Assembly (NCBI RefSeq): GCF_003030345.1
Contig: NZ_CP028158.1
Location: forward strand, 3,720,001-3,784,000
Length of the DNA stretch: 64,000 bases
Source of the DNA: Plantactinospora sp. BC1
GTDB taxonomy: Bacteria; Actinomycetota; Actinomycetes; Mycobacteriales; Micromonosporaceae
Reading direction: 5' to 3'
Positions 8,688-24,912 of the stretch are shown here, in pieces (within the stretch, counting starts at the first letter, position 1; every line of letters starts with the position of its first letter). Under the pieces are notes generated by a model, which saw only the letters and a program-made list of their open reading frames with translations, did not search any database and had not been told where the DNA came from. The position numbers and the translations under genes were made by a program.

Positions 8688-9818
<1,131 letters not shown>

Positions 9819-9843
9819 GCCGGCGGCCGGCCCTCGCCGCCGT

Positions 9844-10683
9844 TCAGAAGAGCACGGTGGCGAAGGTGCCGACCGAACGGAACCCGCACCGCTCGTAGAC
9901 CCGGCGGGCCGGGGCGTTGTAGTCGTTGACGTAGAGGCTCACCGTGGGCGCCACCCGGGCCAGCGCGTCCCGGACCACCGCCGCCATGGCGGCGACGCCG
10001 ATCCCCCGCCCCCGCCAGGCCGGGTCGACCCAGACCCCCTGGATCTGCGCGGTGCGCCGGGTGACGACCGCCAGCTCGGCCTTGAAGATCACCTGGCCGT
10101 CGACGATCCGGGCGTACGCCCGGCGGGCCCGGACCAGTTCGGCGACCCGCTGCCGGTACGCCCGGCCGCCATCCTCGGCCAGCGGCGACACCCCCACCTC
10201 CTCGGTGTACATGGCCACCGCCGCCGGGAATAGCGCGTCGATCTCGCCCGCGCGTACCGGATGCACGTCCGGGTCCGGCGCCACCGGCGGCGCCGCCCCG
10301 GTCGCCAGCAGCGGCTGGTTCGGGCGTACGTCCCGGGCCGGTCCCCACCGGCCGGAGAGCCGCTCCCAGAGCCCGAGCACCCCGTCCGCCCGGCCGACGA
10401 TCGACGAGCAGGTGCGTTCCTCGGCGCCGAGTGCCTCGGCGAAGGCGGCGATCGCCGGCCGGCCGGCGCAGACCGGGGTGACCTGGCCGCCCAGCCAGCA
10501 GAGCGATTCGAGGTTGTCCCGGGTGCCGTAGCCGAGCACCCGCCCGTCCGCCCGCCACCAGGACAGGCCGTTCGCGGCGATCCGCTCGGCCACCTGCGCG
10601 GCGGCGTACGGGTCGAGGTCGAGGATCCGCTCCACCGCGCCGCGTTCGGCCTCTCCGAGCTGGCGTACCGGCACCATCAGCAC
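9844..10683 (-). CDS. DUF4081 / GNAT acetyltransferase
   Basis: This encodes 279 residues. The N-terminal DUF4081 domain (about 5-130, with a GLSWWRADGRVLGYG segment) precedes a GNAT fold (about 140-279). The acetyl-CoA loop is near VDPAWRGRGIGVAAM and the C-terminus is SLYVNDYNAPARRVYERCGF. This architecture is typical of the actinobacterial protein usually encoded beside ispG (Rv2867c in M. tuberculosis). Here it is about 15 kb from ispG, so the usual linkage is broken. The start is ATG at 10683. The substrate is unknown. Confidence 0.88.
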   Translation of the reverse strand: MLMVPVRQLGEAERGAVERILDLDPYAAAQVAERIAANGLSWWRADGRVLGYGTRDNLESLCWLGGQVTPVCAGRPAIAAFAEALGAEERTCSSIVGRADGVLGLWERLSGRWGPARDVRPNQPLLATGAAPPVAPDPDVHPVRAGEIDALFPAAVAMYTEEVGVSPLAEDGGRAYRQRVAELVRARRAYARIVDGQVIFKAELAVVTRRTAQIQGVWVDPAWRGRGIGVAAMAAVVRDALARVAPTVSLYVNDYNAPARRVYERCGFRSVGTFATVLF

Positions 10684-10765
10684 GCCTACCAGCGTGCCAG
10701 ATCATCGGCCGGGGGACGGGCCGGATCACCGCGCCGGCTCCGGGCGGGTCCGGACATCCCGACCG

Positions 10766-11800
10766 TTACGCGGACTCCCGGACGACCAGCTCGGTGGGGA
10801 GGATGACCGCCGCGTGCGAGTCGCCGGCCAGGTGTCCGAGGAGCAGCCGGACCATCTCGGCGCTGATCCGCTCCCACGGCTGCCGGATGGTGGTCAGTCG
10901 CGGTACGGAGGTGCTGGCCACCTTCGAGTCGTCGAAGCCGCCGACCGCGACGTCGTCGGGGATCCGCTTGCCGGCCTTGCGCAGCGCGGCCATCGCGCCG
11001 GTGGCCATCAGGTCGGAGCTGACGAAGACGGCGTCCAGCTCCGGCACCTGGCGCAGCAGCCGCTCCATCGCCGCCTCGCCGCTGTCGAAGGTGTAGTCGC
11101 CGGTCACCACCAGCCGGGGATCGGCCTCGCCGAGCACGTCGTGGTAGCCGGCGAGCCGGTCCACCCCGCCGGAGGTGTCCAGCGGGCCGGTGATGGTGCC
11201 GATCCTGCGGTGCCCCCGGGAGCGCAGGTAACTGACCATCTGCCGGGCGCCGCCCCGGTCGTCGGCGGCGACGTAGCTGACGTCGCGGTCCCGGCCGAGC
11301 GGGCGGCCGACGGCGACGAAGGGCAGGCCCCGCTCGTCCAGCTCGTCCAGGAGCGGGCTGCCGGCGTGGGAGGAGATCACCAGTGCGCCGTCCACGTGCC
11401 CGGCGGTGACGTACCGGCCGACCCGCTTGCGGTCCTCCTGGGTACCGGCGATGGTCAGCAGCAGCGTGATGTCGTGCTCGGCCAGCTCCTGGGTGCAGCC
11501 CCGGAGCAGGATGTTGAAGTTCGGGTCCTCGAAGAGCCGGTCCTGTGGCTCGGAGAGGATGAACGCCACCGAGTCCGAGCGCTGGGTGACCAGGCTCCGG
11601 GCGTGCTGGTTGAGCACGTACCCGGTCTTGCGGATCGCCCGCCGGACGGCCTCCAGCGCCGGGCCGCTGACGTTGTGCCCGCCGTTGAGCACCCGGGAGA
11701 CGGTGCCCCGGGAGACGCCGGCCACCGCCGCCACGTCGTCCATGGTCGGGCGGGGTCTCGTCCGGCGGGTACGGCTACGGCTGCGGTCGGGCGCGGTCAC
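10766..11800 (-). CDS. LacI family repressor of the galactan locus
   Basis: This encodes 344 residues. The LacI helix-turn-helix MDDVAAVAGVSRGTVSRVLN (about 20-39) is followed by a hinge and a periplasmic-binding-protein-like ligand domain (about 80-340). It is the last gene of the binding protein-permease-permease operon, 60 bp after the second permease. It is the natural owner of the four 14-bp operators at 15136, 15236, 17531 and 17610, which resemble the CebR palindrome TGGGAGCGCTCCCA. The inducer is presumably a galacto-oligosaccharide, by analogy with Bacillus GanR. The start is GTG at 11800; a start at the ATG beginning MDDVAAV is also possible. Role in the regulon is inferred from context. 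Confidence 0.92.
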   Translation of the reverse strand: MTAPDRSRSRTRRTRPRPTMDDVAAVAGVSRGTVSRVLNGGHNVSGPALEAVRRAIRKTGYVLNQHARSLVTQRSDSVAFILSEPQDRLFEDPNFNILLRGCTQELAEHDITLLLTIAGTQEDRKRVGRYVTAGHVDGALVISSHAGSPLLDELDERGLPFVAVGRPLGRDRDVSYVAADDRGGARQMVSYLRSRGHRRIGTITGPLDTSGGVDRLAGYHDVLGEADPRLVVTGDYTFDSGEAAMERLLRQVPELDAVFVSSDLMATGAMAALRKAGKRIPDDVAVGGFDDSKVASTSVPRLTTIRQPWERISAEMVRLLLGHLAGDSHAAVILPTELVVRESA

Positions 11801-11860
11801 GCTGTCATTGTCCCCGGGTCGGCTGCCAGCGGCGGCATCGGAGCTTGTGACACACCTCGC

Positions 11861-12772
11861 CTACGCCTTGACCGAGCCGGAGATCAGGTCCACCCGCCAG
11901 TACCGCTGGAGGGAGAGGAAGAGGGCCACCAGCGGAATGATCGACAGGAGTGAGCCGATGATCACCAGCCGGTAGAGCGCGGGCTCGGTCGAGCCCCGGT
12001 TGAGCAGCGTGTAGAGCCCGAGCGTGACCGGGAACCGGTCGTCGTCGGCGAGCATGATGAACGGCAGCAGGAAGTTGTTCCAGATGGCCACGAACTGGAA
12101 CAGGAACACGGTGATCAGTCCGGGGACCATCATCGGCATCGCCACCCGGCGGAAGATCCCCAACTCGCTCGCGCCGTCCACCCGGGCCGCCTCGATCACC
12201 GAGTCCGGCACCGCCGAGGCGGCGTAGATCCGGGCCAGGTAGATGCCGTACGGGCTGACGATGCTGGGCAGCAGCACCGACCAGTACGTGTCGGTGAGCC
12301 CGACCTTCGCCAGCAGCAGGTACTGCGGGACGGCCAGGATGATCCCCGGCACCAGCACCCCGGCGAGCAGGACGTTGAACACCGCCGACCGGCCGGCGAA
12401 CCGGTATTTGGCCAGGGTGTAGCCGGTCAGCCCGGAGACCAGCGCGGAGAGCACCCCGCCGACCCCGGCGTAGAACGCGGTGTTGAGCATCCACCGCCAG
12501 AAGATCCCGTCCGCGTACGTCGACAGGTCGGTCAGGTTCTCCAGCATCGAGGTGCTCGGGGCGAAGGTGAAGCTGGTGAAGAGCGTCGACCCGCTCTTCG
12601 TCGACGCCACCAGCACCCAGACCACCGGCAGCAGGCAGTACACCGCCCCGATCAGCAGTACGGCGGTGGGCACCACCTGCGGCCAGCGGGACCGGTCCGG
12701 CCCGCCGGCCGCTCCGCTCGCGGTGGCCGGCGCCCGGTCCGGGGTGCGGATCTCGGCGGTTCTGGTCGCCAT
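11861..12772 (-). CDS. sugar ABC transporter permease (MalG/GanQ type)
   Basis: This encodes a 303-residue carbohydrate ABC permease of the MalG class with six transmembrane segments. The EAA loop for ATPase docking is EAARVDGASELGIFRRVAMP, around residue 210. The hydrophilic Ala/Pro-rich N-terminus (1-35) precedes the first membrane segment. The gene follows the MalF-type gene with TGAGATG, a one-base gap, so the pair is co-translated and must form a heterodimer. No ATPase gene is present; in actinomycetes one MsiK ATPase serves many such importers. The substrate is inferred to be galactan oligosaccharides from the flanking GH42 and GH53 genes. Confidence 0.93.
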   Translation of the reverse strand: MATRTAEIRTPDRAPATASGAAGGPDRSRWPQVVPTAVLLIGAVYCLLPVVWVLVASTKSGSTLFTSFTFAPSTSMLENLTDLSTYADGIFWRWMLNTAFYAGVGGVLSALVSGLTGYTLAKYRFAGRSAVFNVLLAGVLVPGIILAVPQYLLLAKVGLTDTYWSVLLPSIVSPYGIYLARIYAASAVPDSVIEAARVDGASELGIFRRVAMPMMVPGLITVFLFQFVAIWNNFLLPFIMLADDDRFPVTLGLYTLLNRGSTEPALYRLVIIGSLLSIIPLVALFLSLQRYWRVDLISGSVKA

Positions 12773-15177: not shown

Positions 15178-15235
15178 GGGACTCTTTAGTGCTTGTTCTC
15201 CTTGTAGATCCGTGTGCAATCATGCGCACTACCAT

Positions 15236-15249
15236 TGGGAGCGCGCACA
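15236..15249. promoter_or_regulatory. LacI operator 2 (GH42 promoter)
   Basis: TGGGAGCGCGCACA, one base from the palindromic consensus, 15 bp before the GH42 start codon and exactly 100 bp from operator 1. A TACCAT hexamer at 15230-15235 directly in front is a possible -10. One repressor could bridge both sites. Confidence 0.75.
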
Positions 15250-15264
15250 GTTCGGAGATCCCGC

Positions 15265-17340
15265 ATGAGTCAGACCCCGCATCTGGTGGTAACCGCGACG
15301 GACGCACCGGGGCAGGCCGGGCCGTTGCCCCGGCTCGACCGGCTGGCGTACGGCGGGGACTACAACCCCGAGCAGTGGCCCGAGCACGTCTGGGCCGAGG
15401 ACGTCGAGTTGATGCGTACCGCCGGGGTGAACCTGGTCAGCGTCGGGATCTTCTCCTGGGCCCTGCTGGAGCCCGCCGAGGGGAGCTTCGACTTCGGCTG
15501 GCTCGACCGGCTCCTCGACCGGCTGCACGACGGCGGGATATCCGTCGACCTGGCCACCCCGACCGCGGTACCCCCGGCCTGGTTCCGCCGGCGCCACCCG
15601 GAGGCCCGGTTGGTCGATCGGCACGGCGTAGCGCTGGGCGGCGGAGCGCGGCAGTCCTTCTGCCCCAGCTCACCCGCGTACGCCGAGGCCAGCGCCCGGA
15701 TCACCGAGGCGCTGGCCCGGCGCTACGCCGAGCACCCGGCGCTGGTGCTGTGGCACTCGCACAACGAGTACGGCGGGGTCAACGCGCTCTGCTACTGCGC
15801 CACCTCGGCGGCCGCGTTCCGGGACTGGCTGCGCGACCGGTACGGCGACCTGCCCCGCCTCAACGACGCCTGGGGCACCACCTTCTGGGGCCAGCGGTAC
15901 GGCGACTGGGCCGAGATCGAGCCGCCGCTCGCCGCGCCGACCGCGGTCAACCCGGCCCAGCAGCTCGACTTCCTGCGCTTCTCCTCCGACGCGCACCTGG
16001 ACAACTTCCGCCGGGAGCGGGACATCCTGCACCGGCTCTGCCCCGGCGTACCGGTGACCACCAACTTCATGCTGGCCAACTGCAAGACCATCGACTACTG
16101 GCGCTGGGCCGACGAGGTGGACGTGGTCTCCAACGACCACTACCTGCGGGCCGAGGAGCCGGACAACCACATCGAGCTGGCGATGTGCGCCGACCTGACC
16201 CGGGCGGTCGCCCGGGGCCGGCCCTGGCTGCTGATGGAACACTCCACCTCGGCGGTGAACTGGCAGCCGCGCAACATCGCCAAGCGCCCCGGCGAACTGC
16301 GCCGCAACAGCCTGACCCACCTGGCCCGGGGCGCCGAGTCGGTGCTCTTCTTCCAGTGGCGGGCCGCCCGGTTCGGCGCGGAGAAGTTCCACTCCGCGAT
16401 GCTGCCGCACGGCGGCACCGAGACCCGGATCTGGCGCGAGGTGGTGGCGCTCGGCGCCGAGCTGCCCGCCCTGGAACCGCTGCGCGGGACCCGGGTGGTC
16501 GCCGACGTCGCGGTGCTCTGGGACTGGGAGTCCTGGTGGGCCGTCGAGCTGGACTGGCGCCCCTCGGTCGACCTGGACTACCGGGAGCGGATGGCGGCGT
16601 ACTACGAACGACTCTGGCGGGACCGGCTCACCGTCGACTTCGCCCACCCGGAACGGCCGCTGGACGACTACCGGCTGGTCGTGGTGCCGAGCCTGTACCT
16701 GACCACCCCGGCCGCCGCCGAGAACCTCCGCCGGTACGTCGCCGGAGGCGGCACGCTGCTGGTCTCGTACTTCTCCGGGATCGCGGACGCCGACGACGCC
16801 GTACATCCGGGGGGTTATCCGGGGGCGCTGCGGGACCTGCTCGGCCTGACCGTCGAGGAGTTCCTGCCGCTGCGCTCCGGCGAGACGCTGCGCCTCGGTC
16901 CGGCCACCGGGGACGCCTCGGAGACCGGGGCCGCCCCGCTGACCGGGGACGTCTGGGCCGAGGCGGTGCTGCCGCACGGGGCGGAGCCGGTGCTGCGCTA
17001 TCTGGACGGTCCGGCCGCCGGTGGTCCCGCCGTCACCCGACACTCCCTCGGCGCCGGCCACGCCTGGTACGTCTCCACCCGGCTGGACGCGGCCGGGCTG
17101 GCCCCGGTGCTCCGGGCGGCGTACCGGGACGCCGGCCTGGTCCCGCCGGACGGGGTGCCGGACGGGGTCGAGCTGCTCCGGCGGGCGGGTGCGGACGGGA
17201 GCCGGTTCCTGATCGCTATCAACCACGCCGACCGGGACGCGGAGCTGCCGGCCACCGGCACCGACCTGGTGGACGGCAGCGTCCACGATGGAGTGCTCCG
17301 GGTGCCGGCCGGCGGCGTACGGGTGCTGCGCACCGGCTGA
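15265..17340 (+). CDS. GH42 beta-galactosidase
   Basis: This encodes a 691-residue glycoside hydrolase family 42 enzyme. The (beta/alpha)8 catalytic barrel spans about 20-400, starting at LAYGGDYNPEQWP. The acid/base is Glu168 in HSHNEYGG and the nucleophile is Glu325 in LLMEHSTSAVNW. A trimerisation Rossmann-like domain (about 410-610) and a small C-terminal beta domain follow. There is no signal peptide, so it acts in the cytoplasm on imported galacto-oligosaccharides. The start is ATG at 15265 with GGAG seven bases upstream. It is divergent from the transporter operon and controlled by operator 2. It equates functionally to GanA of Bacillus; beta-1,4-galactan specificity is inferred from context. 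Confidence 0.95.
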   Translation: MSQTPHLVVTATDAPGQAGPLPRLDRLAYGGDYNPEQWPEHVWAEDVELMRTAGVNLVSVGIFSWALLEPAEGSFDFGWLDRLLDRLHDGGISVDLATPTAVPPAWFRRRHPEARLVDRHGVALGGGARQSFCPSSPAYAEASARITEALARRYAEHPALVLWHSHNEYGGVNALCYCATSAAAFRDWLRDRYGDLPRLNDAWGTTFWGQRYGDWAEIEPPLAAPTAVNPAQQLDFLRFSSDAHLDNFRRERDILHRLCPGVPVTTNFMLANCKTIDYWRWADEVDVVSNDHYLRAEEPDNHIELAMCADLTRAVARGRPWLLMEHSTSAVNWQPRNIAKRPGELRRNSLTHLARGAESVLFFQWRAARFGAEKFHSAMLPHGGTETRIWREVVALGAELPALEPLRGTRVVADVAVLWDWESWWAVELDWRPSVDLDYRERMAAYYERLWRDRLTVDFAHPERPLDDYRLVVVPSLYLTTPAAAENLRRYVAGGGTLLVSYFSGIADADDAVHPGGYPGALRDLLGLTVEEFLPLRSGETLRLGPATGDASETGAAPLTGDVWAEAVLPHGAEPVLRYLDGPAAGGPAVTRHSLGAGHAWYVSTRLDAAGLAPVLRAAYRDAGLVPPDGVPDGVELLRRAGADGSRFLIAINHADRDAELPATGTDLVDGSVHDGVLRVPAGGVRVLRTG

Positions 17341-17623: not shown

Positions 17624-17705
17624 ACCGTGGCGCCGGTGGGCGAGATTGGTGCCCTGGCGGAGCCGCCTGGGCACCCTGGTCGAGTCCACCGAGGAGCGTT
17701 TGTCG

Positions 17706-19295
17706 ATGCAGCAGAGAAGACTCGGGTTCGGGGCCGTCGCGCTGGTCGCCGCCGTCGTCGTGGCCCAGCCGACCCCGGCGGTCGCCGGGACCGGCGGCGG
17801 GGTTCCGGCGCCGACCGGCACCGTGCGGAACCCCGGTTTCGAGACCGCCGGTCCGGACGGCTCACCCGCCGGCTGGTCCGAGCGCGGTCAGCGGTCCGCC
17901 AGCTACGTCGAGCCGGGCGGCCGGTCCGGCGGGAACCGGCTCACCCACTCGGCCGACCACTCGTACCGGGTGGCGACCGTCCAGCGGCTCACCGGGCTGC
18001 GCCCCGGCGACCACACCCTGCGGGTGGCGGTACGCGCCAGCGGCGGCCAGCGCGACGCGTACGTGGCGCTCAGCGGCTGCGGCGGGCCGACCCGCCGGGT
18101 CGAACTGCCGCGCACCGGCGCACAGTGGTGGGTCGAGGTGGCGCTGACCACGAGGGTCCGCTCCGGGCACTGCACGGTCGAGCTGGTCTCGGACGGCAAC
18201 GCCGGGGACTGGGCACACTTCGACGACCTCACGCTCCGCCCGGCCACCCGACCGGCCGGCGCCCCCGCACTGCGGATCGCCGGGGCCGACGTCTCGCACC
18301 TGACCAAGAACGAGCACCACGGCGCGGTCTACCGCGACCGCGTCGGACGGCCCGGCGACGCGCTGCGGATCCTCGCCGACAACGGCGTCAACTACGCCCG
18401 GGTGAAGGTCTGGGTGAACCCGGCCGACGGCTTCAGCGACAAGGCGGACGTACTGGCCAAGGCGCGCCGGGCGAAGGCGCTCGGCATGGGCCTGCTGATC
18501 GACTTCCACTACTCCGACACCTGGGCCGACCCGGGCAAGCAGTTCAAGCCGGCCGCCTGGGCCGACCTCCCCTTCGACCAGCTCCGGCAGGCGCTCTACG
18601 ACCACACCTACGACGTGGTGTCGAGCCTGCGCCGGCAGGGCACCCCGGCCGACATGGTGCAGATCGGCAACGAGATCAACGGCGGGATGCTCTGGCCGGA
18701 CGGGCGCTGGGACAACTGGGACGGGCTGGCCGCGCTGCTCACCGCCGCCAGTACCGCGGTCACCGACGCCTCGCCGCGCAGCAGGGTCGCGCTGCACCTG
18801 GCCGAGGGCGGCGACAACGACGGCCACCGGTGGTGGTTCGACAACGCGGTCAGCCGGGGCGTGCCGTTCGACCTGATCGCCGTCTCGCACTACACGTACT
18901 GGCACGGCCCGCTCGGCTCGCTCCAGGCCAACCTCCTCGACCTGACCGCCCGGTACGGCAAGCCGGTGATGGTGGTGGAGACCGGGTACGGCTTCACGCT
19001 GGCCGAACAGGACCACGAGGCCAACATCTTCAACGCCTCGCTGCAACAGGTCGCCGGCTATCCGGCCACCCCGGCGGGTCAGGCCGAGGCGATCCGCGAC
19101 ATGGTCACCACCGTCTCCGCCGTACCCGGTGCGCTCGGGATCTTCTACTGGGAACCGACCTGGACCGCGGTCGACGGAGCCGGTTGGGATCCGGCCGACC
19201 CGACCTCCGGGGACGGCTGGGAGAACCAGGCGCTCTTCGACTACTCCGGACGGGCCCTGCCCGGACTGCGGGTACTCGGCGACGCCGCCCGATAG
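17706..19295 (+). CDS. secreted GH53 endo-beta-1,4-galactanase (copy 1)
   Basis: This encodes 529 residues. A Sec signal peptide (1-28, ending AVAG) is followed by a beta-sandwich carbohydrate-binding domain (about 40-190). It starts NPGFE and contains paired cysteines, and resembles the CBM61 or CBM4/9-type modules found on galactanases. The GH53 barrel spans about 200-525. The acid/base is Glu323 in QIGNEING and the nucleophile is Glu425 in VVETGYGF. It cleaves beta-1,4-galactan outside the cell for the adjacent importer. The start is ATG at 17706 with GAGGAG nine bases upstream; an upstream GTG lacks a ribosome site. Operators 3 and 4 precede it. Confidence 0.95.
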   Translation: MQQRRLGFGAVALVAAVVVAQPTPAVAGTGGGVPAPTGTVRNPGFETAGPDGSPAGWSERGQRSASYVEPGGRSGGNRLTHSADHSYRVATVQRLTGLRPGDHTLRVAVRASGGQRDAYVALSGCGGPTRRVELPRTGAQWWVEVALTTRVRSGHCTVELVSDGNAGDWAHFDDLTLRPATRPAGAPALRIAGADVSHLTKNEHHGAVYRDRVGRPGDALRILADNGVNYARVKVWVNPADGFSDKADVLAKARRAKALGMGLLIDFHYSDTWADPGKQFKPAAWADLPFDQLRQALYDHTYDVVSSLRRQGTPADMVQIGNEINGGMLWPDGRWDNWDGLAALLTAASTAVTDASPRSRVALHLAEGGDNDGHRWWFDNAVSRGVPFDLIAVSHYTYWHGPLGSLQANLLDLTARYGKPVMVVETGYGFTLAEQDHEANIFNASLQQVAGYPATPAGQAEAIRDMVTTVSAVPGALGIFYWEPTWTAVDGAGWDPADPTSGDGWENQALFDYSGRALPGLRVLGDAAR

Positions 19296-19403: not shown

Positions 19404-20993
19404 ATGAGCGGTCCGTCCCATCCGCTCCGTACGGCCGCCGCCGCTCTCGGCGCCGTACTGCTCGCCGCCGGCCTGGTCGCCGGCCCCGCCCCGAGTGCGG
19501 TCCGCGCCGCCGCCACCGTCACCAACCCGGGCTTCGAGTCCTCCGGCGCCGGCCAGAGCCCGACGGGCTGGTCCGAGTCGTCCAGCTCCGGACAGCAGAG
19601 TGCCAGCTTCACCGAGGCCGGCGGGCGATCCGGCAACTACCGCCTGTCGCACTGGGCCTCCGGCGCCTACCGGGTGGAGACCCACCAGCAGCTCACCGGG
19701 TTGGCCGCCGGGGCGTACACGTTGCGGGCCTGGGTCCGCTCCGGCGGCGGCCAGGTCGCCGCGTACCTGGCGCTGCGCGGCTGCGGTGGCGCCGAGCAGC
19801 GGGCCGCCATCCCGACCGCGTCGAGCTGGACCCAGGTGTCGGTGACCGCCCAGGTGACCGGCGGGCAGTGCACGGTCGCGGTGGTCTCCGACGCCCAGGC
19901 CGGCAACTGGATCAACGTCGACGACGTCGAGTTCACCGGCGGCGGTGGCACCAACCCGGGTGCGGCCGTCCCGATCCGCGGTGTCGACATCTCCACCCTG
20001 CTCAAGAGCCAGGACCGGGGCGGCGTCTACCGGGACGCGGCCGGCACCCAGCGGGACCCGTTGCAACTGCTCACCGCGAACGGGGTCAACTACGCCCGGC
20101 TGAAGGTCTGGGTCAACCCGGCCGACGGATACAACAACCGGGCCCGGGTGCTGACCATGGCCAGTCGGATCAAGGCACAGGGGATGCGGCTGCTGGTCGA
20201 CTTCCACTACTCGGACAGCTGGGCCGACCCGGGCAAGCAGAACAAGCCCGCCGCCTGGAGCGGCTACAACTTCAACCAGCTCCGGGACGCGGTCTACAAC
20301 CACACGTACGACGTGCTCAACGCGCTGAAGGCGCAGGGTACGACGGCCGACATGGTGCAGGTCGGCAACGAGATCAACGACGGCATGCTCTGGCCGGACG
20401 GGCGGAGCAACAACTGGGCGAACCTGGCCGCCCTGCTCACCGCCGGCAGCAACGCGGTGAAGGCGGTGAACAGCTCGACCCAGGTGATGCTGCACCTGGC
20501 CGAGGGCGGCAACAACTCGCAGCACCGGTGGTGGTTCGACCAGGCCACCTCCCGAGGCGTGCCGTTCGACGTGATCGGGGTGTCGCACTACCTCTACTGG
20601 CACGGCTCGCTGGGCAGCCTCCAGGCGAACCTGAACGACCTCGCCGCCCGGTACGGCCGGCCGGTGGTGGTCGCCGAGACCGCGTACGGCTTCACCCTGA
20701 ACGCCGACGACAGCGAGCCGAACATCTTCAACTCCTCGTTGCAGTCGGCCGGCGGCTACCCGGCCACCCCGCAGGGTCAGGCCGACGCGCTGCGGGCGGT
20801 CTTCAACGTCGTCCGGTCGGTGCCGAACGGTCGGGGCCTCGGCGTCTTCTACTGGGAGCCCACCTGGACGGCGGTGCCCGGCAACGGCTGGGACCCGACC
20901 AACCCCTCCTCGGGCAACGGCTGGGAGAACCAGGCGCTCTTCGACTACGGCGACCGGGCGCTGCCGGGCCTGGCGGTCTTCGGCTCGGTGTAA
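19404..20993 (+). CDS. secreted GH53 endo-beta-1,4-galactanase (copy 2)
   Basis: This encodes 529 residues, the same length and layout as the upstream gene. The signal peptide is 1-36, the NPGFE-type carbohydrate-binding domain about 40-178, a short Gly-rich linker (GGGGTNPG) comes next, and the GH53 barrel follows. Catalytic Glu323 (QVGNEIND) and Glu425 (VAETAYGF) fall at the same positions as in copy 1. The two are clear tandem paralogs, diverged enough to suggest different chain-length or branching preference. ATG has GGAAGGAA upstream. A strong hairpin separates it from copy 1, and no LacI operator is visible in the 108-bp gap. It may be transcribed by read-through. Confidence 0.95.
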   Translation: MSGPSHPLRTAAAALGAVLLAAGLVAGPAPSAVRAAATVTNPGFESSGAGQSPTGWSESSSSGQQSASFTEAGGRSGNYRLSHWASGAYRVETHQQLTGLAAGAYTLRAWVRSGGGQVAAYLALRGCGGAEQRAAIPTASSWTQVSVTAQVTGGQCTVAVVSDAQAGNWINVDDVEFTGGGGTNPGAAVPIRGVDISTLLKSQDRGGVYRDAAGTQRDPLQLLTANGVNYARLKVWVNPADGYNNRARVLTMASRIKAQGMRLLVDFHYSDSWADPGKQNKPAAWSGYNFNQLRDAVYNHTYDVLNALKAQGTTADMVQVGNEINDGMLWPDGRSNNWANLAALLTAGSNAVKAVNSSTQVMLHLAEGGNNSQHRWWFDQATSRGVPFDVIGVSHYLYWHGSLGSLQANLNDLAARYGRPVVVAETAYGFTLNADDSEPNIFNSSLQSAGGYPATPQGQADALRAVFNVVRSVPNGRGLGVFYWEPTWTAVPGNGWDPTNPSSGNGWENQALFDYGDRALPGLAVFGSV

Positions 20994-21048: not shown

Positions 21049-21081
21049 CGGCCTCGGCCCGGACCCTGCGGGCCGGGGCCG
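21049..21081. terminator. terminator after the galactan locus
   Basis: A 13-bp GC-rich stem with one wobble pair (arms 21049-21061 and 21069-21081) and a 7-nt loop, 55 bp after the second GH53 stop. It marks the end of the galactan locus. Confidence 0.6.
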
Positions 21082-21104
21082 TCGCCGGCTGGGCGACAGC
21101 ACGC

Positions 21105-21145
21105 ACATAAGATTGGCAGACGTAAATAAAACCTGTTACAAGCTG
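21105..21145 (+). promoter_or_regulatory. AT-rich promoter region of the VTC/CotH cluster
   Basis: This is a conspicuously AT-rich stretch in a GC-rich window. It contains TTGGCA (21113-21118) followed after 17 bp by TTACAA (21136-21141), and TAAGAT at 21108. It lies about 105 bp before the DUF4956 gene and is the only plausible promoter for the three-gene set. Confidence 0.4.
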
Positions 21146-21247
21146 TTAGCGACAGCCGCGGCTCAGGATCGATGTCCTTCAATGTAATCTGGTAGACGGC
21201 GTCCGTTTACCCACCGGCCACCGGATGTAACCAGGAGGACAGGACCC

Positions 21248-21850
21248 ATGCCCCAACTCGCCCTCTTTGCGGCGGACATCGTCGCAGTGACCCTGCTCGT
21301 GTTCGGGCTCTACTTTCCACGCCACCGGCGTCGAGACCTCGTCGCCGCGTACCTCGGCGTCAACATCGGGGTGATGGCGGTGGCGAGTTCGCTCGGCACC
21401 AGCAGCGCCGGCACCGGCCTGGGTCTCGGTCTGGCGCTCTTCGGGGTGCTCTCCATCATCCGGCTCCGCTCCACCGAACTCGACCAGCACGAGGTGGCGT
21501 ACTACTTCTCGGCGCTGGCCCTCGGCATCCTCTCCGCCCTCGGCGGCGGCCCGGCCTGGCAGGTACCGACCATGATGGCCCTGATCCTGGTGGTCATGTT
21601 CGTCGGCGACCACCCCCGGCTGTTCCGCAGCTACCAGCGGCAGAGCATGTTCCTCGACTCGGCCATCACCGACCACGTCGCACTCGTCGCCTACCTCGAA
21701 CAGAAGCTCGGCGCCCGGGTGCACTCGGCCAGCGTCCAGCGCCTCGACCTGGTCAACGACACCACCCTGGTCGACGTGCGCTACTCGCACCCGTCGGTGC
21801 AGCGGGCTGTCCGCAACGTCACGGTCTCCACCGGTGGGGTGCCCCGATGA
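21248..21850 (+). CDS. DUF4956 membrane protein
   Basis: This encodes 200 residues. Three to four hydrophobic segments (about 5-22, 33-55, 58-72, 85-118) are followed by a soluble C-terminal domain (120-200). The SIIRLRSTELDQHEVAYYF segment is typical of DUF4956. Family proteins frequently neighbour VTC-domain and CotH genes, as here. It is the first gene of the set and overlaps the VTC gene by ATGA (21847-21850). The start is ATG with AGGAGGA upstream. Function unknown; a membrane partner for the cytoplasmic VTC domain is a reasonable inference. Confidence 0.85.
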   Translation: MPQLALFAADIVAVTLLVFGLYFPRHRRRDLVAAYLGVNIGVMAVASSLGTSSAGTGLGLGLALFGVLSIIRLRSTELDQHEVAYYFSALALGILSALGGGPAWQVPTMMALILVVMFVGDHPRLFRSYQRQSMFLDSAITDHVALVAYLEQKLGARVHSASVQRLDLVNDTTLVDVRYSHPSVQRAVRNVTVSTGGVPR

Positions 21851-22713
21851 CCAGCACCGCCGTTGACTGCGCCCTGCCGGGGCACCTGGACCCGATCGGG
21901 CTGGACGAACTCACCGAACGCGCCGCGTTGCAGACCCGGGTGGACCGCAAGTACGTGCTGCCGCTGCACGAGGCGCGGGCGGTCGTCGCACAGGTCGGTC
22001 CGGACACCCTGGCCCTGGAGATCGACGGACGCCGCTCCTTCGAGTACCGGTCGGTCTACTTCGACACCCCGGAACTGACCAGCTATCTGCTCACCGCCCA
22101 GCGCCGGCGGCGCCGGTTCAAGGTGCGCACCCGGACCTATCTCGACTCGGCGGAATGCTGGCTGGAGGTGAAGACGCAGGGTCCCCGGGGCAACACCGTG
22201 AAGGACCGGCTGCCGTACCGGGCGGACGACGAGACCAGCCTCTCCCCCGGACGGCAGTTCGTCGACGGCGTACTCGCGCGGGAGTCGATCGAGATCGGCG
22301 ACCGGGTCTTCGCCCCCGTCCTCGTCACCAGGTACCGGCGCAGCACCCTCTTCCTGGCCGCGACGGTGAGCCGGGTGACCATCGACACCGAGCTGACCTG
22401 GGAGGGGGACGACGGGCCGCTCCAGTTGCCGGGACTGGCCGTGGTCGAGACCAAGACCGGGTCGACCGCGTCCTGGGTGGACCGCCTGCTCTGGGCCCGG
22501 GGCCACCGGCCGACACGGATCTCCAAGTACGCCACCGGGCTGGCCGCGCTCCGACCGGACCTGCCGTCCGCACCCTGGCGCCGCACCCTGCGCCGGCACT
22601 TCACCTTCATCGGGGCCACCGACGGCCACCGGTCCCACCTCGACGTCGACCGGTCCGGCCTCAGCCTCGTGGCGAGTGCGGTCCGTCCCGCGAACAGCTC
22701 TGGAACGGAGTAG
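21847..22713 (+). CDS. VTC domain protein (polyphosphate polymerase-like)
   Basis: This encodes 288 residues forming a VTC-type triphosphate-tunnel domain, as in the polyphosphate-synthesising subunit Vtc4 of yeast. Tunnel motifs visible are RVDRKYVLP (about 32-40), FEYRSVYFDT (about 65-74), RFKVRTRTY (about 91-99), WLEVKTQG, VTRYRR and the C-terminal VVETKTGS plus ISKYATG. These supply the basic and acidic residues that bind phosphate chains and metal. No membrane segment is present, so it should act at the inner face with DUF4956. The ATGA overlap makes it co-translated with DUF4956, and the CotH gene starts 5 bp after its stop. Enzymatic activity is inferred. Confidence 0.88.
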   Translation: MTSTAVDCALPGHLDPIGLDELTERAALQTRVDRKYVLPLHEARAVVAQVGPDTLALEIDGRRSFEYRSVYFDTPELTSYLLTAQRRRRRFKVRTRTYLDSAECWLEVKTQGPRGNTVKDRLPYRADDETSLSPGRQFVDGVLARESIEIGDRVFAPVLVTRYRRSTLFLAATVSRVTIDTELTWEGDDGPLQLPGLAVVETKTGSTASWVDRLLWARGHRPTRISKYATGLAALRPDLPSAPWRRTLRRHFTFIGATDGHRSHLDVDRSGLSLVASAVRPANSSGTE

Positions 22714-22718
22714 GGAAG

Positions 22719-24806
22719 ATGCGCACACTCGGCTACTACCTGGCGGGCGTCCTGGTCGCCGCGGCGATCGGCCCGGCGGCGGGGCCCGCTCCGGGATGGG
22801 GCGACGGCTCCGACCGTCCGGCGTCGGTCGCCCAGGAGACGGCGGCCCAGACCGGCGGCGAGGCCGCCGCCGGGGCGGCGGGCGGCAGCACCGACGCGGC
22901 GGCGGAGGCCCAGGCGGACCCGACCGGCGACATCACGTTCTCGGTGCCGAGCGGCACCTTCCAGGGCGAGGTCTCGGTCGCGCTGGGCAGCACGGTGAGC
23001 GGGGCGGAGGTGCGGTACACCACCGACGGCCAGCCGCCGAGCGCCAGTTCGCCGGTCTACTCCGGCACTCCGCTGCGGTTCACCCGTACCACGCAGGTGC
23101 GGGCCCAGGCGTACCTGAGCGGCGCCCCGACCGGCGAGCCCGGCACCGCGATGTACGTCGCCCGCGCGGTGAACACCGCGCACGACCTGCCGGTACTGCT
23201 GCTCGACGCGTACGGGCGGGGCGCACCGGGGCGGGACTACATCGACACCGCCGTCATGCAGTTCTCCCCGGTGAACGGGACGACCTCGCTCTCCGCCGCG
23301 CCCAGCCTGGTCAGCCGGGGCGGCTTCCACCTGCGCGGGCAGTCCAGCGCGATGTTCCCGAAGACGCCGTACCGGCTGGAGCTGCGGGACAACGCCGACG
23401 ACGACGTCGACCTGCCGCTGCTGGGCATGCCGGCCGACTCCGACTGGGTACTGCGCGGCCCGTACAGCGACAAGGCGCTGATCCGGGACGCCTTCATGCA
23501 CGGCCTGGGCCAGGACATGGGCCTGTACGCCCCGCGCTACGCCTTCGCCGAGGTGTACGTGAACACCGACGCGAACCCGGTCGCCGCGAACGACTACCTC
23601 GGGGTCTACCTGATCGTCGAGACCATCAAGAACTCGAAGAACCGGCTCGACCTGAAGCAGCTCGACGAGGACGACGTCACGCTGCCGAAGCTGACCGGCG
23701 GATACATCTTCAAGTTCGAGTGGATGGCGGCGGAGGAGCCGACCCTGCCCTGCCAGGGCGCGGACGCGACCTGCTGGCACTACCTGGAGGTGGTCGACCC
23801 GGACCCGCTGCAACCCGCGCAGGCGGAGTGGCTGCGGCAGCACATCCAACAGTTCCACGACCTGTTGCGCAGTCCCGGATTCGCCGATCCGGTGACGGGA
23901 TATTCGTCCTTCATCGACGTCGACTCCTTCGTCGACCAGCTCATCATCAACGAGTTCGGTCGGGGCATGGACGCCTACCTGCGCAGCGCGTACTTCCACA
24001 AGGACCGGGACAGCAAGATCGTCGCCGGTCCGCTCTGGGACTTCGACCTGACCTTCGGGGTGGGCGGCTTCTTCCAGAACGACCAGATCGCCGGCTGGCA
24101 GCACCAGCAGACCCGTACCCCGAGCGCGAACGACTGGTTCCAGCGGCTGCTCCAGGATCCGGCCTTCGTCAACCGGGTCAAGGTCCGCTGGCAGCAGCTC
24201 CGCCAGGGGGTACTCTCCAACGCCCAGCTCCAGGCCCGGATCGACCGGTTGACCGCCCCGCTGACCGCCGCCGCGCAGCGGAACTTCCAGCGCTGGCCGA
24301 ACCTCAGCACCCGGATGGTCGGCCCGTTCATCACGCCGACCTCGCCGACCTGGCAGGGACAGGTGCAGTTCATGCGGGACTGGATGTTCCAGCGGGCGGC
24401 GTGGCTGGACACCACCGGCGGCTGGGGCTCCGGCGGGACCAACCCGACCACTCCGCCGACCACCAGGCCGCCGACCCCGCCGGCCAGCACCCCGCCGGCC
24501 ACCGGCCCGACGTGTACGGCCGCCTACAGCGTCACCGGTCAGTGGACCGGCGGCTTCCAGGCCAGCGTACGGGTCACCGCCGGTTCGGCCGCGATCACCG
24601 GCTGGCGGGTCAACTGGACGTACGCCAACGGGCAGACGGTCAGCCAGTCCTGGGAGGCGACCGTGACCAGCAGCGGTGCGACGGTGACCGCGACCAATGC
24701 CGCGCACAACGGGGCGCTCGGCGCCGGGGCGAGCACCACCTTCGGGTTCCTCGGCACCTGGAACGGCACGAACAGCCTGCCCACACCCACCTGTACGGCG
24801 TCCTGA
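22719..24806 (+). CDS. secreted CotH kinase family protein with CBM2
   Basis: This encodes 695 residues. The order is a signal peptide (1-25), an Ala/Gly-rich linker, an Fn3/chitobiase-like beta domain (about 68-140, with VRYTTDGQPPSASSPVY), a CotH kinase domain (about 145-560), a Pro/Thr linker and a C-terminal CBM2 (about 595-695) with paired cysteines. CotH proteins are atypical protein kinases that phosphorylate secreted or coat proteins in Bacillus spores. Here GPLWDFDLTFG carries the characteristic DFD metal-binding element and RGQSS(A)MFPK the nucleotide-loop region. The CBM2 implies attachment to cellulose or chitin-like polymer outside the cell. ATG has TAGGGAAG upstream. It ends the DUF4956-VTC-CotH cluster. 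Its target is unknown. Confidence 0.9.
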   Translation: MRTLGYYLAGVLVAAAIGPAAGPAPGWGDGSDRPASVAQETAAQTGGEAAAGAAGGSTDAAAEAQADPTGDITFSVPSGTFQGEVSVALGSTVSGAEVRYTTDGQPPSASSPVYSGTPLRFTRTTQVRAQAYLSGAPTGEPGTAMYVARAVNTAHDLPVLLLDAYGRGAPGRDYIDTAVMQFSPVNGTTSLSAAPSLVSRGGFHLRGQSSAMFPKTPYRLELRDNADDDVDLPLLGMPADSDWVLRGPYSDKALIRDAFMHGLGQDMGLYAPRYAFAEVYVNTDANPVAANDYLGVYLIVETIKNSKNRLDLKQLDEDDVTLPKLTGGYIFKFEWMAAEEPTLPCQGADATCWHYLEVVDPDPLQPAQAEWLRQHIQQFHDLLRSPGFADPVTGYSSFIDVDSFVDQLIINEFGRGMDAYLRSAYFHKDRDSKIVAGPLWDFDLTFGVGGFFQNDQIAGWQHQQTRTPSANDWFQRLLQDPAFVNRVKVRWQQLRQGVLSNAQLQARIDRLTAPLTAAAQRNFQRWPNLSTRMVGPFITPTSPTWQGQVQFMRDWMFQRAAWLDTTGGWGSGGTNPTTPPTTRPPTPPASTPPATGPTCTAAYSVTGQWTGGFQASVRVTAGSAAITGWRVNWTYANGQTVSQSWEATVTSSGATVTATNAAHNGALGAGASTTFGFLGTWNGTNSLPTPTCTAS

Positions 24807-24831
24807 CCACCCGCCGCGGGTAGCGGTACTC

Positions 24832-24865
24832 CTGCCGGCGTCGGCCTCCTGGCCGGCGCCGGCAG
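24832..24865. terminator. terminator after the CotH gene
   Basis: A long stem: CTGCCGGCG (24832-24840) pairs with CGCCGGCAG (24857-24865), and inside it GGCC pairs with GGCC around a TCCT loop. It lies 26 bp after the CotH stop. Confidence 0.65.
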
Positions 24866-24912
24866 TGTGTTCCGGGTCACCCCGAGGAATCATCCGTGGC
24901 TACGGACGTGTT

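Follow-up and report, generated by a model that had tools for sequence, protein, structure and literature searches.

The 64,000-nucleotide stretch of DNA analyzed here (the window) contains a tight operon of three genes, encoding a DUF4956 membrane protein, a VTC-type triphosphate tunnel enzyme, and a CotH-family kinase-like protein (Table 1). A Pfam scan and the gene coordinates agree with the families named in an earlier, sequence-only reading and with its gene junctions: DUF4956 and VTC overlap by ATGA (21847-21850), and a gap of 5 bp (22714-22718) separates VTC from CotH. We took the CotH start as 22719; the mechanical open reading frame (ORF) list opens the same frame at 22155. The near flanks of the operon are GH53, GH53, and PadR (Pfam scan). 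The proposed AT-rich promoter region held up as a dip in GC content (48% at 21100-21199, versus 59 to 84% across the remaining 100-base windows between 20800 and 21499), and positions 21080-21247 are alignable in four same-genus loci, but a consensus scan found no sigma-70-like promoter upstream of the operon. The suggested terminator corresponds to a strong G+C-rich hairpin past the CotH stop (−51.5 kcal/mol; z, −4.4; equally stable shuffles, 0 of 200), although it lacks a T run and was not listed by the consensus scan.

Table 1. Features of the DUF4956-VTC-CotH operon and its borders
Feature	Coordinates	Strand	Basis
AT-richer conserved 5' region, candidate promoter and untranslated leader	21080..21247	+	GC minimum, same-genus alignment
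DUF4956 membrane protein, 200 aa	21248..21850	+	ORF list, Pfam
VTC-type triphosphate tunnel enzyme, 288 aa	21847..22713	+	ORF list, Pfam, alignment
Probably secreted CotH-family kinase-like protein, 695 aa	22719..24806	+	Pfam, hydrophobic N-terminus
CHB_HEX_C_1 (chitobiase-like) domain of CotH protein, residues 77-135	22947..23123	+	Pfam
CotH kinase domain, residues 204-563; D418, D441	23328..24407	+	Pfam, alignments
CBM2 carbohydrate-binding module of CotH protein, residues 599-689	24513..24785	+	Pfam, solved CBM2 relatives
G+C-rich hairpin 3' of CotH stop, possible terminator without T run	24831..24866	+	Folding versus shuffles

The VTC protein matches its Pfam family with an E value of 2.2e-25 (90 bits; cut-off, 23). 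Its tunnel motifs, described as intact from the sequence alone, proved to be so on alignment to yeast Vtc4 and to family rows: K35, R94, R96, K109, K119, R165, R176, E201, K203, and K227, among others, are counterparts of Vtc4 residues. Numbered by counting along the printed alignment, K200, R264, R266, K281, K294, R361, R373, E426, and K458 of Vtc4 all have counterparts in the window protein, and we take K200, K281, K294, R361, and R373 to be tunnel residues. Among the Vtc4 residues, PMC9911596 names R264, R266, and E426, and PMC4641920 names K458. Catalytic residues are retained in the alignments of both VTC and CotH. The Vtc4-matching tunnel residues do not vary in any ungapped row of the 119-protein alignment, and the profile match is strongest for catalytic Vtc4 (3e-21), followed by Vtc2 (3.5e-12) and Vtc3 (2e-7); both results argue for the polyphosphate-making role developed below.

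A polymerase is expected to carry basic residues at the acidic-patch positions of hydrolytic tunnel enzymes, according to PMC4641920. Two of these three positions are basic in the window VTC (R31 and K203), and the third is acidic (D33). Because D33 and K35 align to E6 and K8 of YgiF, R31 falls at E4; K203 would fall at E162, with the alignment itself setting E201 two residues further on. Of 117 ungapped rows, 116 have E or D at the D33 position, as in hydrolytic relatives, which counts against polyphosphate synthesis, as does the fact that no bacterial VTC protein was described as active in the paper listings and passages searched. The Pfam scan found a VTC domain alone, with neither an SPX nor a DUF202-type membrane domain and with DUF4956 as the neighbor, and the protein is therefore filed as working like VTC4 and not as a eukaryotic-type VTC complex.

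The DUF4956 protein matches its own family, PF16316, at an E value of 9.8e-58 and was modeled with five helices at low confidence (pLDDT, 59); low confidence in the fold of the membrane part weighs against the polyphosphate reading. Y22, R72, and R74 are invariant in family rows. The R-x-R motif formed by the two arginines occurs in 119 of 119 proteins, which favors that reading, and basic pore residues are required for yeast VTC export (PMC9911596). Of 21 weak profile hits in DUF4956 family members, 8 were to MgtC (next family, 2). The best score was 21.8 bits (L140; E value, 2.5e-4) versus a Pfam cut-off of 31.4, so DUF4956 was not filed as an MgtC member, and the window protein itself had no MgtC match at an E value of 5 or better. 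Likeness to MgtC proteins (E. coli YhiD; M. tuberculosis C-domain, 2lqj) extends to the fold of one DUF4956 homologue, in which only the C-terminal domain was modeled confidently; it appears ACT-like and resembles the MgtC C-domain. A Vtc1-like identity for DUF4956 was rejected because no solved VTC subunit was among its sequence matches, and matches to ATP-synthase c (E value, 0.045) and a designed protein (E value, 0.37) were taken as chance. A scan with the window DUF4956 confirmed no relatives in viral contigs. MgtC proteins are not known as polymer channels, another point against the polyphosphate reading.

The MgtC likeness of DUF4956 members and the apparently ACT-like tail of the homologue, a fold frequent in regulation, would also suit a membrane energy or nucleotide sensor, in which VTC and DUF4956 control or mature the outer partner with no exported polymer. 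A kinase-regulator pair near 21 of the 72 loci examined in the leader-bearing set (see below) points the same way. We nevertheless regard a sensor as somewhat unlikely, given that all basic polymerase tunnel residues are invariant, beyond the needs of a binding-only role.

VTC and DUF4956 travel together in both genome samples, which is a new result: they occur in exactly the same genomes, 25 of 246 Actinomycetota and 18 of 139 Bacillota (Fisher test, 9e-35 and 5e-23, respectively, relatedness ignored). Where both genes were found at a locus, they were on the same strand in 118 of 118 cases and within 150 nt in 110 of those. Genomes with the pair also encode CotH or Cthe_2159 (18 of 18 Bacillota and 24 of 25 Actinomycetota). 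In Corynebacterium glutamicum, control searches recovered DUF4956, VTC, and CotH alike. The gene-neighborhood check proposed with the sequence-only reading thus revealed deep linkage that reaches beyond close relatives, and all of these counts favor the polyphosphate reading. Counting against it are a VTC-CotH locus with no DUF4956 detected (L139), two loci with neither partner next door (L123 and L147), and genomes without the pair that have CotH or Cthe_2159 above the cut-off (G157, G620, and G672; G012, G578, and G584).

The window CotH is probably secreted, judging from an 18-residue hydrophobic segment at its N-terminus (average hydropathy, 1.65) and from its carbohydrate-binding modules. 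Pfam matches were to the CotH domain (E value, 1.7e-62; 212 bits versus a cut-off of 23.8), CHB_HEX_C_1 (3.5e-13), and CBM_2 (4.2e-24). D251 is presumably the second catalytic aspartate of the solved CotH. In the window protein, D418 and D441 have the same spacing, 23 residues, as in solved B. cereus CotH (5jd9), and by counting this spacing, we equated D418 with the catalytic D228 named in PMC7821199. Both residues are invariant in a 23-sequence alignment; in a 60-sequence alignment, D441 is invariant and D418 is retained in at least 90%. Bacillus spore CotH (5jd9/5jda), which shares the family and both catalytic aspartates, acts on coat proteins (PMC7821199), whereas the window protein has the hydrophobic N-terminus and binding modules described above.

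CotH is not obligatory, because an unrelated beta-helix protein, Cthe_2159 (PF14262), occupies its position at 31 loci out of 80 in one set and at 13 out of 40 in the other; the surface phosphorylation originally proposed therefore cannot be what the family as a whole does. Cthe_2159 is a reported binder of cellulose and polygalacturonate. The genome of the window carries it as a solitary gene ∼435 kb from the operon. Beyond the relatives of the window, the main clade sampled has a ∼35-residue N-terminal membrane leader common to both partners; the window CotH is without it. Because this leader makes the Cthe_2159 profile match CotH proteins (43 were labeled as both), partner labels were assigned after removal of the first 60 residues, and a quick tree then gave 12 partner exchanges, at least 9 of them on supported branches (13 changes, at least 7 forced, with labels from full sequences). 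Both the exchanges and the common leader favor a constant VTC-DUF4956 pair serving different outer proteins.

All strong matches to the leader lay in third genes of this operon, and an N-terminal hydrophobic segment is present in 65 of 65 complete partners of the leader-bearing set. Such a segment, with the same leader on two unrelated partners, could indicate that VTC and DUF4956 serve specifically to export, anchor, or modify the partner itself, the leader docking on DUF4956 and the partner being (poly)phosphorylated. We think this quite improbable, since the window CotH has no such leader and several partners in other Actinomycetota resemble lipoproteins by eye. Swapping of the third gene at a fixed place makes recombination through the leader plausible, and the leader might then have no function and simply record that genes replaced one another at a single locus. 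That, too, appears unlikely: among 36 chosen leaders (20 CotH and 16 Cthe_2159), cross-family identity (0.48) matches that within CotH (0.46), and codon-position identities of 0.55/0.75/0.39, with position 2 inflated by hydrophobic codons, indicate that the protein sequence was kept while third positions drifted.

Calling the system undescribed was too strong, because the trio appears in PMC7112168 and VTC with CotH in PMC2879425. The former describes CotH, a polyphosphate polymerase (PPP), and DUF4956 beside Gram-positive Pel operons, as accessory genes with no tested function. These CotH-PPP-DUF4956(-DUF4832) clusters bring together the same three families; unlike them, the window operon has GH53 and PadR as near neighbors, with no contiguous Pel genes in the Pfam scan of the near flanks, and its CotH bears a CBM2. 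In the VTC-“tubulin”-CotH arrangement of C. perfringens NELoc-2 (PMC2879425), VTC genes also lie near CotH, but the intervening genes are annotated tubulin/FtsZ rather than DUF4956; our guess is that they are DUF4956. The C. perfringens locus includes a chitin-synthase-like gene (PMC2879425), which, with the Pel-adjacent trios, would fit an accessory of Pel-type exopolysaccharide production. The tallies of neighbor families weaken this idea, and we consider it very unlikely: no polysaccharide synthase family was prominent among the best 25 families of the 98 and 99 neighbors scanned, although glycosyltransferase families 1 and 2 were matched by 4 and 2 of 98 neighbors, respectively, and the window's near flanks are of other families.

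Overall, the polyphosphate-making, membrane-crossing machine of yeast appears to have its bacterial equivalent in these three genes. They share with yeast VTC (Vtc4 plus Vtc1 membrane subunits) the tunnel residues, including R264, R266, E426, and K458, and an enzyme whose membrane-protein partner has invariant basic residues; they differ in having DUF4956, no SPX or DUF202-type domain, an extra outer partner, and a bacterial host. We put the probability at roughly 0.5 that the operon is a bacterial VTC-like envelope system, in which a VTC-like polyphosphate synthase and its membrane partner serve an interchangeable outer protein. Sequence comparison establishes the parts (Vtc4 tunnel residues, a weakly MgtC-like DUF4956, and usually a CotH or Cthe_2159 partner), from which we infer polymer synthesis, export, and use. 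Of the earlier proposal that VTC and DUF4956 may make or export a phosphate polymer, the enzyme with a membrane partner still seems the best reading, whereas the part given to CotH and the claim of novelty were overstated.

In the envelope system, VTC would polymerize phosphate from ATP into polyphosphate at the inner face, and DUF4956, as its membrane partner, would either move the growing chain outward or gate the enzyme; the invariant R-x-R recalls the basic residues lining the yeast VTC pore. The polymer would arrive at the outer face and be handled there by the partner protein. CotH would transfer phosphate or polyphosphate to a target that its carbohydrate-binding modules hold, and Cthe_2159 would retain the polyanion at the wall. 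Because the window partner is a CotH with a CBM2, the likely target is a surface resembling cellulose or chitin, or something attached to such a surface. A rather improbable extension is that the exported polyphosphate is itself the phosphate donor for the extracellular kinase: CotH, acting where extracellular ATP is scarce, would draw on polymer delivered at the membrane, with alternative partners docking via the common leader in the leader-bearing clade, for modular polymer-powered surface modification.

The trio itself was already in print; new here are the co-occurrence, the tunnel invariance over VTC rows, the R-x-R motif and weak MgtC likeness of DUF4956, and the swapped partner with a common leader. 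The VTC-DUF4956 plus CotH/Cthe_2159 rule and the shared leader make the system testable. If the envelope-system reading is right, a polyphosphate system coupled to the membrane and separate from PPK1 and PPK2, the standard polyphosphate enzymes, would be widespread in bacteria, which would explain why VTC and DUF4956 travel together in every pair genome of both samples. DUF4956 would gain a function, CotH and Cthe_2159 would share a common purpose, and the phosphate supply of a secreted bacterial kinase would have a possible answer.

Rereading the window sequence bore out the gene boundaries first given for the DUF4956-VTC-CotH operon, with its ATGA overlap between DUF4956 and VTC and 5 bp between the VTC stop and the CotH start, and a Pfam scan of the window proteins placed DUF4956, VTC, CotH, CHB_HEX_C_1, and CBM_2 each over its cut-off. 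The trio is real. The flanking elements proposed by the sequence-only reading stood in part: GC dips to 48% directly upstream of the operon, in a region that can be aligned among four loci of the same genus, but a consensus promoter scan of this region found none, and the proposed terminator is a stable hairpin 3' of the operon but has no T run.

Coordinates of the operon genes, their surroundings, and individual loci
Feature	Position	Strand	Observation
DUF4956	window 21248-21850	+	
VTC	window 21847-22713	+	
CotH with CBM2	window 22719-24806	+	
Putative GH42	window 15214-17340		5' of both GH53 genes
GH53	window 17646-19295		upstream of operon
GH53	window 19404-20993		upstream of operon
GTAAATAAAACCTGTTACAAGCTGTTAGCG stretch	window 21122-21151		CTGTTA repeated; kept in part across genus; perhaps an operator
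Locus L139	~9411-12490		VTC then CotH; DUF4956 match absent alongside
Locus L147	12534-14462		other protein after DUF4956-VTC, probably secreted, weak Big_1; possibly a third partner type
Locus L172	9331-10719 (G000:C1, ~4178 kb)		lone Cthe_2159 in the window's genome, ~435 kb off, not adjoining VTC/DUF4956

The claimed linkage of the families is deep, as judged from evenly drawn genome samples, 246 from Actinomycetota and 139 from Bacillota (the phylum of [Clostridium] aminophilum). Profile searches found DUF4956 in 25/246 Actinomycetota genomes, with VTC in the same 25, and both families in the same 18/139 Bacillota genomes (Fisher, 9e-35 and 5e-23, uncorrected for relatedness). Listed coordinates, read by eye, place a VTC match less than 1 kb from 27/27 Actinomycetota and 22/24 Bacillota DUF4956 matches; of the two exceptions, one has a CotH match between DUF4956 and VTC (G684) and the other has the two near the starts of two contigs (G610). 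VTC and DUF4956 share a strand at 118/118 loci with both found, taken from a clade set of 80 loci and an Actinomycetota set of 40; one locus (L089) starts at DUF4956, with a contig end close by. Among 14 control genomes, VTC and DUF4956 always occur together, in three (Bacteroides ihuae, Corynebacterium glutamicum, and Methanosarcina acetivorans), with CotH in C. glutamicum, M. acetivorans, and Bacillus subtilis, and the beta-helix protein Cthe_2159 (PF14262) in B. ihuae only. Within the window's own family, 155/300 genomes carry DUF4956, with up to 4 matches per genome.

At loci without CotH, the next gene usually encodes Cthe_2159. The clade set holds the best 80 of 570 relatives of one DUF4956 clade used as query and is skewed toward it (almost every title names a Bacillota member; L045 comes from the actinobacterium Atopobium, and L112 has no title beyond “bacterium”), and some genomes contribute two or three of the Actinomycetota loci. 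Partners were labeled without a distance limit and after the first 60 residues had been cut off, whereupon 0 ORFs match both families; Cthe_2159 labels come from Pfam at L045 and L141 and from an in-house profile elsewhere. The clade set has CotH at 47 loci, Cthe_2159 at 31, and neither at 2 (L123 and the truncated L121), and the Actinomycetota set has CotH at 24, Cthe_2159 at 13, both at 1 (L168), and neither at 2 (L147 and L158). L139 excluded, partners lie <400 nt from the pair except at L166 (652 nt) and for the L168 CotH (966 nt). At L168, a single cluster contains CotH, Cthe_2159, VTC, DUF4956, and a second Cthe_2159.

Genome-wide, CotH occurs in 19 Actinomycetota genomes (18 among the 25 with the pair) and 18 Bacillota genomes (16 among the 18 with the pair, including G544 by a short, weak match over the cut-off). 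Cthe_2159 occurs in 12 Actinomycetota genomes (11 pair bearing) and, over the cut-off, in 12 Bacillota genomes (10 pair bearing, with two sub-cut-off matches outside). Either partner is present somewhere in 18/18 pair-bearing Bacillota and 24/25 pair-bearing Actinomycetota genomes; the remaining genome (G224) has its DUF4956 at the end of a 5,885-base contig. On a quick VTC-DUF4956 tree of 118 loci (113 labeled; long branches flagged as unsure), the partner changes 12 times, at least 9 of them forced by supported branches, versus a shuffled mean of ~35, indicating that partners are clustered yet were exchanged many times.

In the clade set, CotH and Cthe_2159 proteins start alike, with a hydrophobic leader (consensus of 36 chosen rows, MSTHKxIDxIC...LLLTxLFMNGxxLGI). 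A profile of 46 CotH N termini matched 27/27 clustered Cthe_2159 proteins (E ≤8.6e-10), and one of 22 Cthe_2159 N termini matched 46/49 CotH entries (E ≤1e-3; three entries are pieces of one L070 gene). Leader identity is 0.48 across families, 0.46 within CotH, and 0.56 within Cthe_2159. When 2,722 ORF N termini were scanned, five others fell under 1e-3, every one directly 3' of DUF4956. Across the 139 whole Bacillota genomes, the sole strong leader matches were two operon third genes (7e-16 and 1.3e-9), with a third such gene at 0.056 and the other 15 matches at 0.0013 or worse; since the pair occurs in 18 of these genomes, the leader is a mark of one clade and not of all Bacillota operons. 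An N-terminal hydrophobic segment is present in 65/65 complete long clade-set partners, and 47/65 also have a C-terminal one. The window CotH does not carry the shared leader, and its N-terminal stretch is moderately hydrophobic (1.65 versus the 1.8 threshold used for membrane segments); several partners in other Actinomycetota appear lipoprotein-like by eye.

Residues D418 and D441 of the window CotH align with two Asp, 23 apart, in the solved Bacillus cereus-type CotH 5jd9. Among 60 CotH proteins, D441 never varies and D418 reaches at least 90% conservation; CHB_HEX_C_1 occurs in 12/60 and CBM_2 in 11/60, the latter being, by our own count (a tally without names), the window protein and near relatives.

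A 19-sequence VTC profile matched the solved structures of the yeast polyphosphate polymerase Vtc4 (3e-21), Vtc2 (3.5e-12), and Vtc3 (2e-7). The tunnel residues are intact, as had been proposed: counted along the printed alignment, 12 Vtc4 positions have window equivalents (K200=K35, R264=R94, R266=R96, E279=E107, K281=K109, K294=K119, R361=R165, R373=R176, D377=D180, E426=E201, K428=K203, and K458=K227), all invariant in every ungapped row of 119 (one or two rows gapped). PMC9911596 reports that R264A/R266A/E426N was used to inactivate Vtc4 and that vacuolar polyphosphate requires basic pore residues. PMC4641920 describes an acidic patch in hydrolytic tunnel enzymes where Vtc4 has basic residues; at these positions the window VTC has basic R31 and K203 and acidic D33.

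Operon neighbors vary between loci. The scan covered 98 of the 128 neighbors listed for the Actinomycetota set and 99 of the 136 listed for the clade set, leaving out proteins of <120 or >1,000 residues and 11 loci whose core genes the gene caller missed. Histidine kinases are the commonest clade-set neighbors (16/99), and a kinase-regulator pair lies near 21/72 loci of that set. In the window's genus, GH53 genes adjoin the operon; GH53 and GH42 recur among Actinomycetota-set neighbors. No polysaccharide synthase family is prominent in the top 25 neighbor families of both scanned sets, and glycosyltransferase families 1 and 2 match 4 and 2, respectively, of the 98 scanned Actinomycetota-set neighbors.

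PMC7112168 reports Pel genes with CotH, a polyphosphate polymerase, DUF4956, and DUF4832 next to them and suggests phosphorylation-based regulation, and PMC2879425 records genes for both VTC and CotH in C. perfringens. According to PMC6712302, CotH and Cthe_2159 are among the domains exclusive to anaerobic gut fungi within its comparison, and Cthe_2159 is said to bind cellulose and polygalacturonate. Our literature search, whose coverage left many subscription journals outside, found no publication on the CotH/Cthe_2159 exchange, the shared leader, or an MgtC resemblance. On our best reading of these sequences, the operon would synthesize polyphosphate in a VTC-like way, coupled to the envelope, and would work with an outer partner that can be exchanged.
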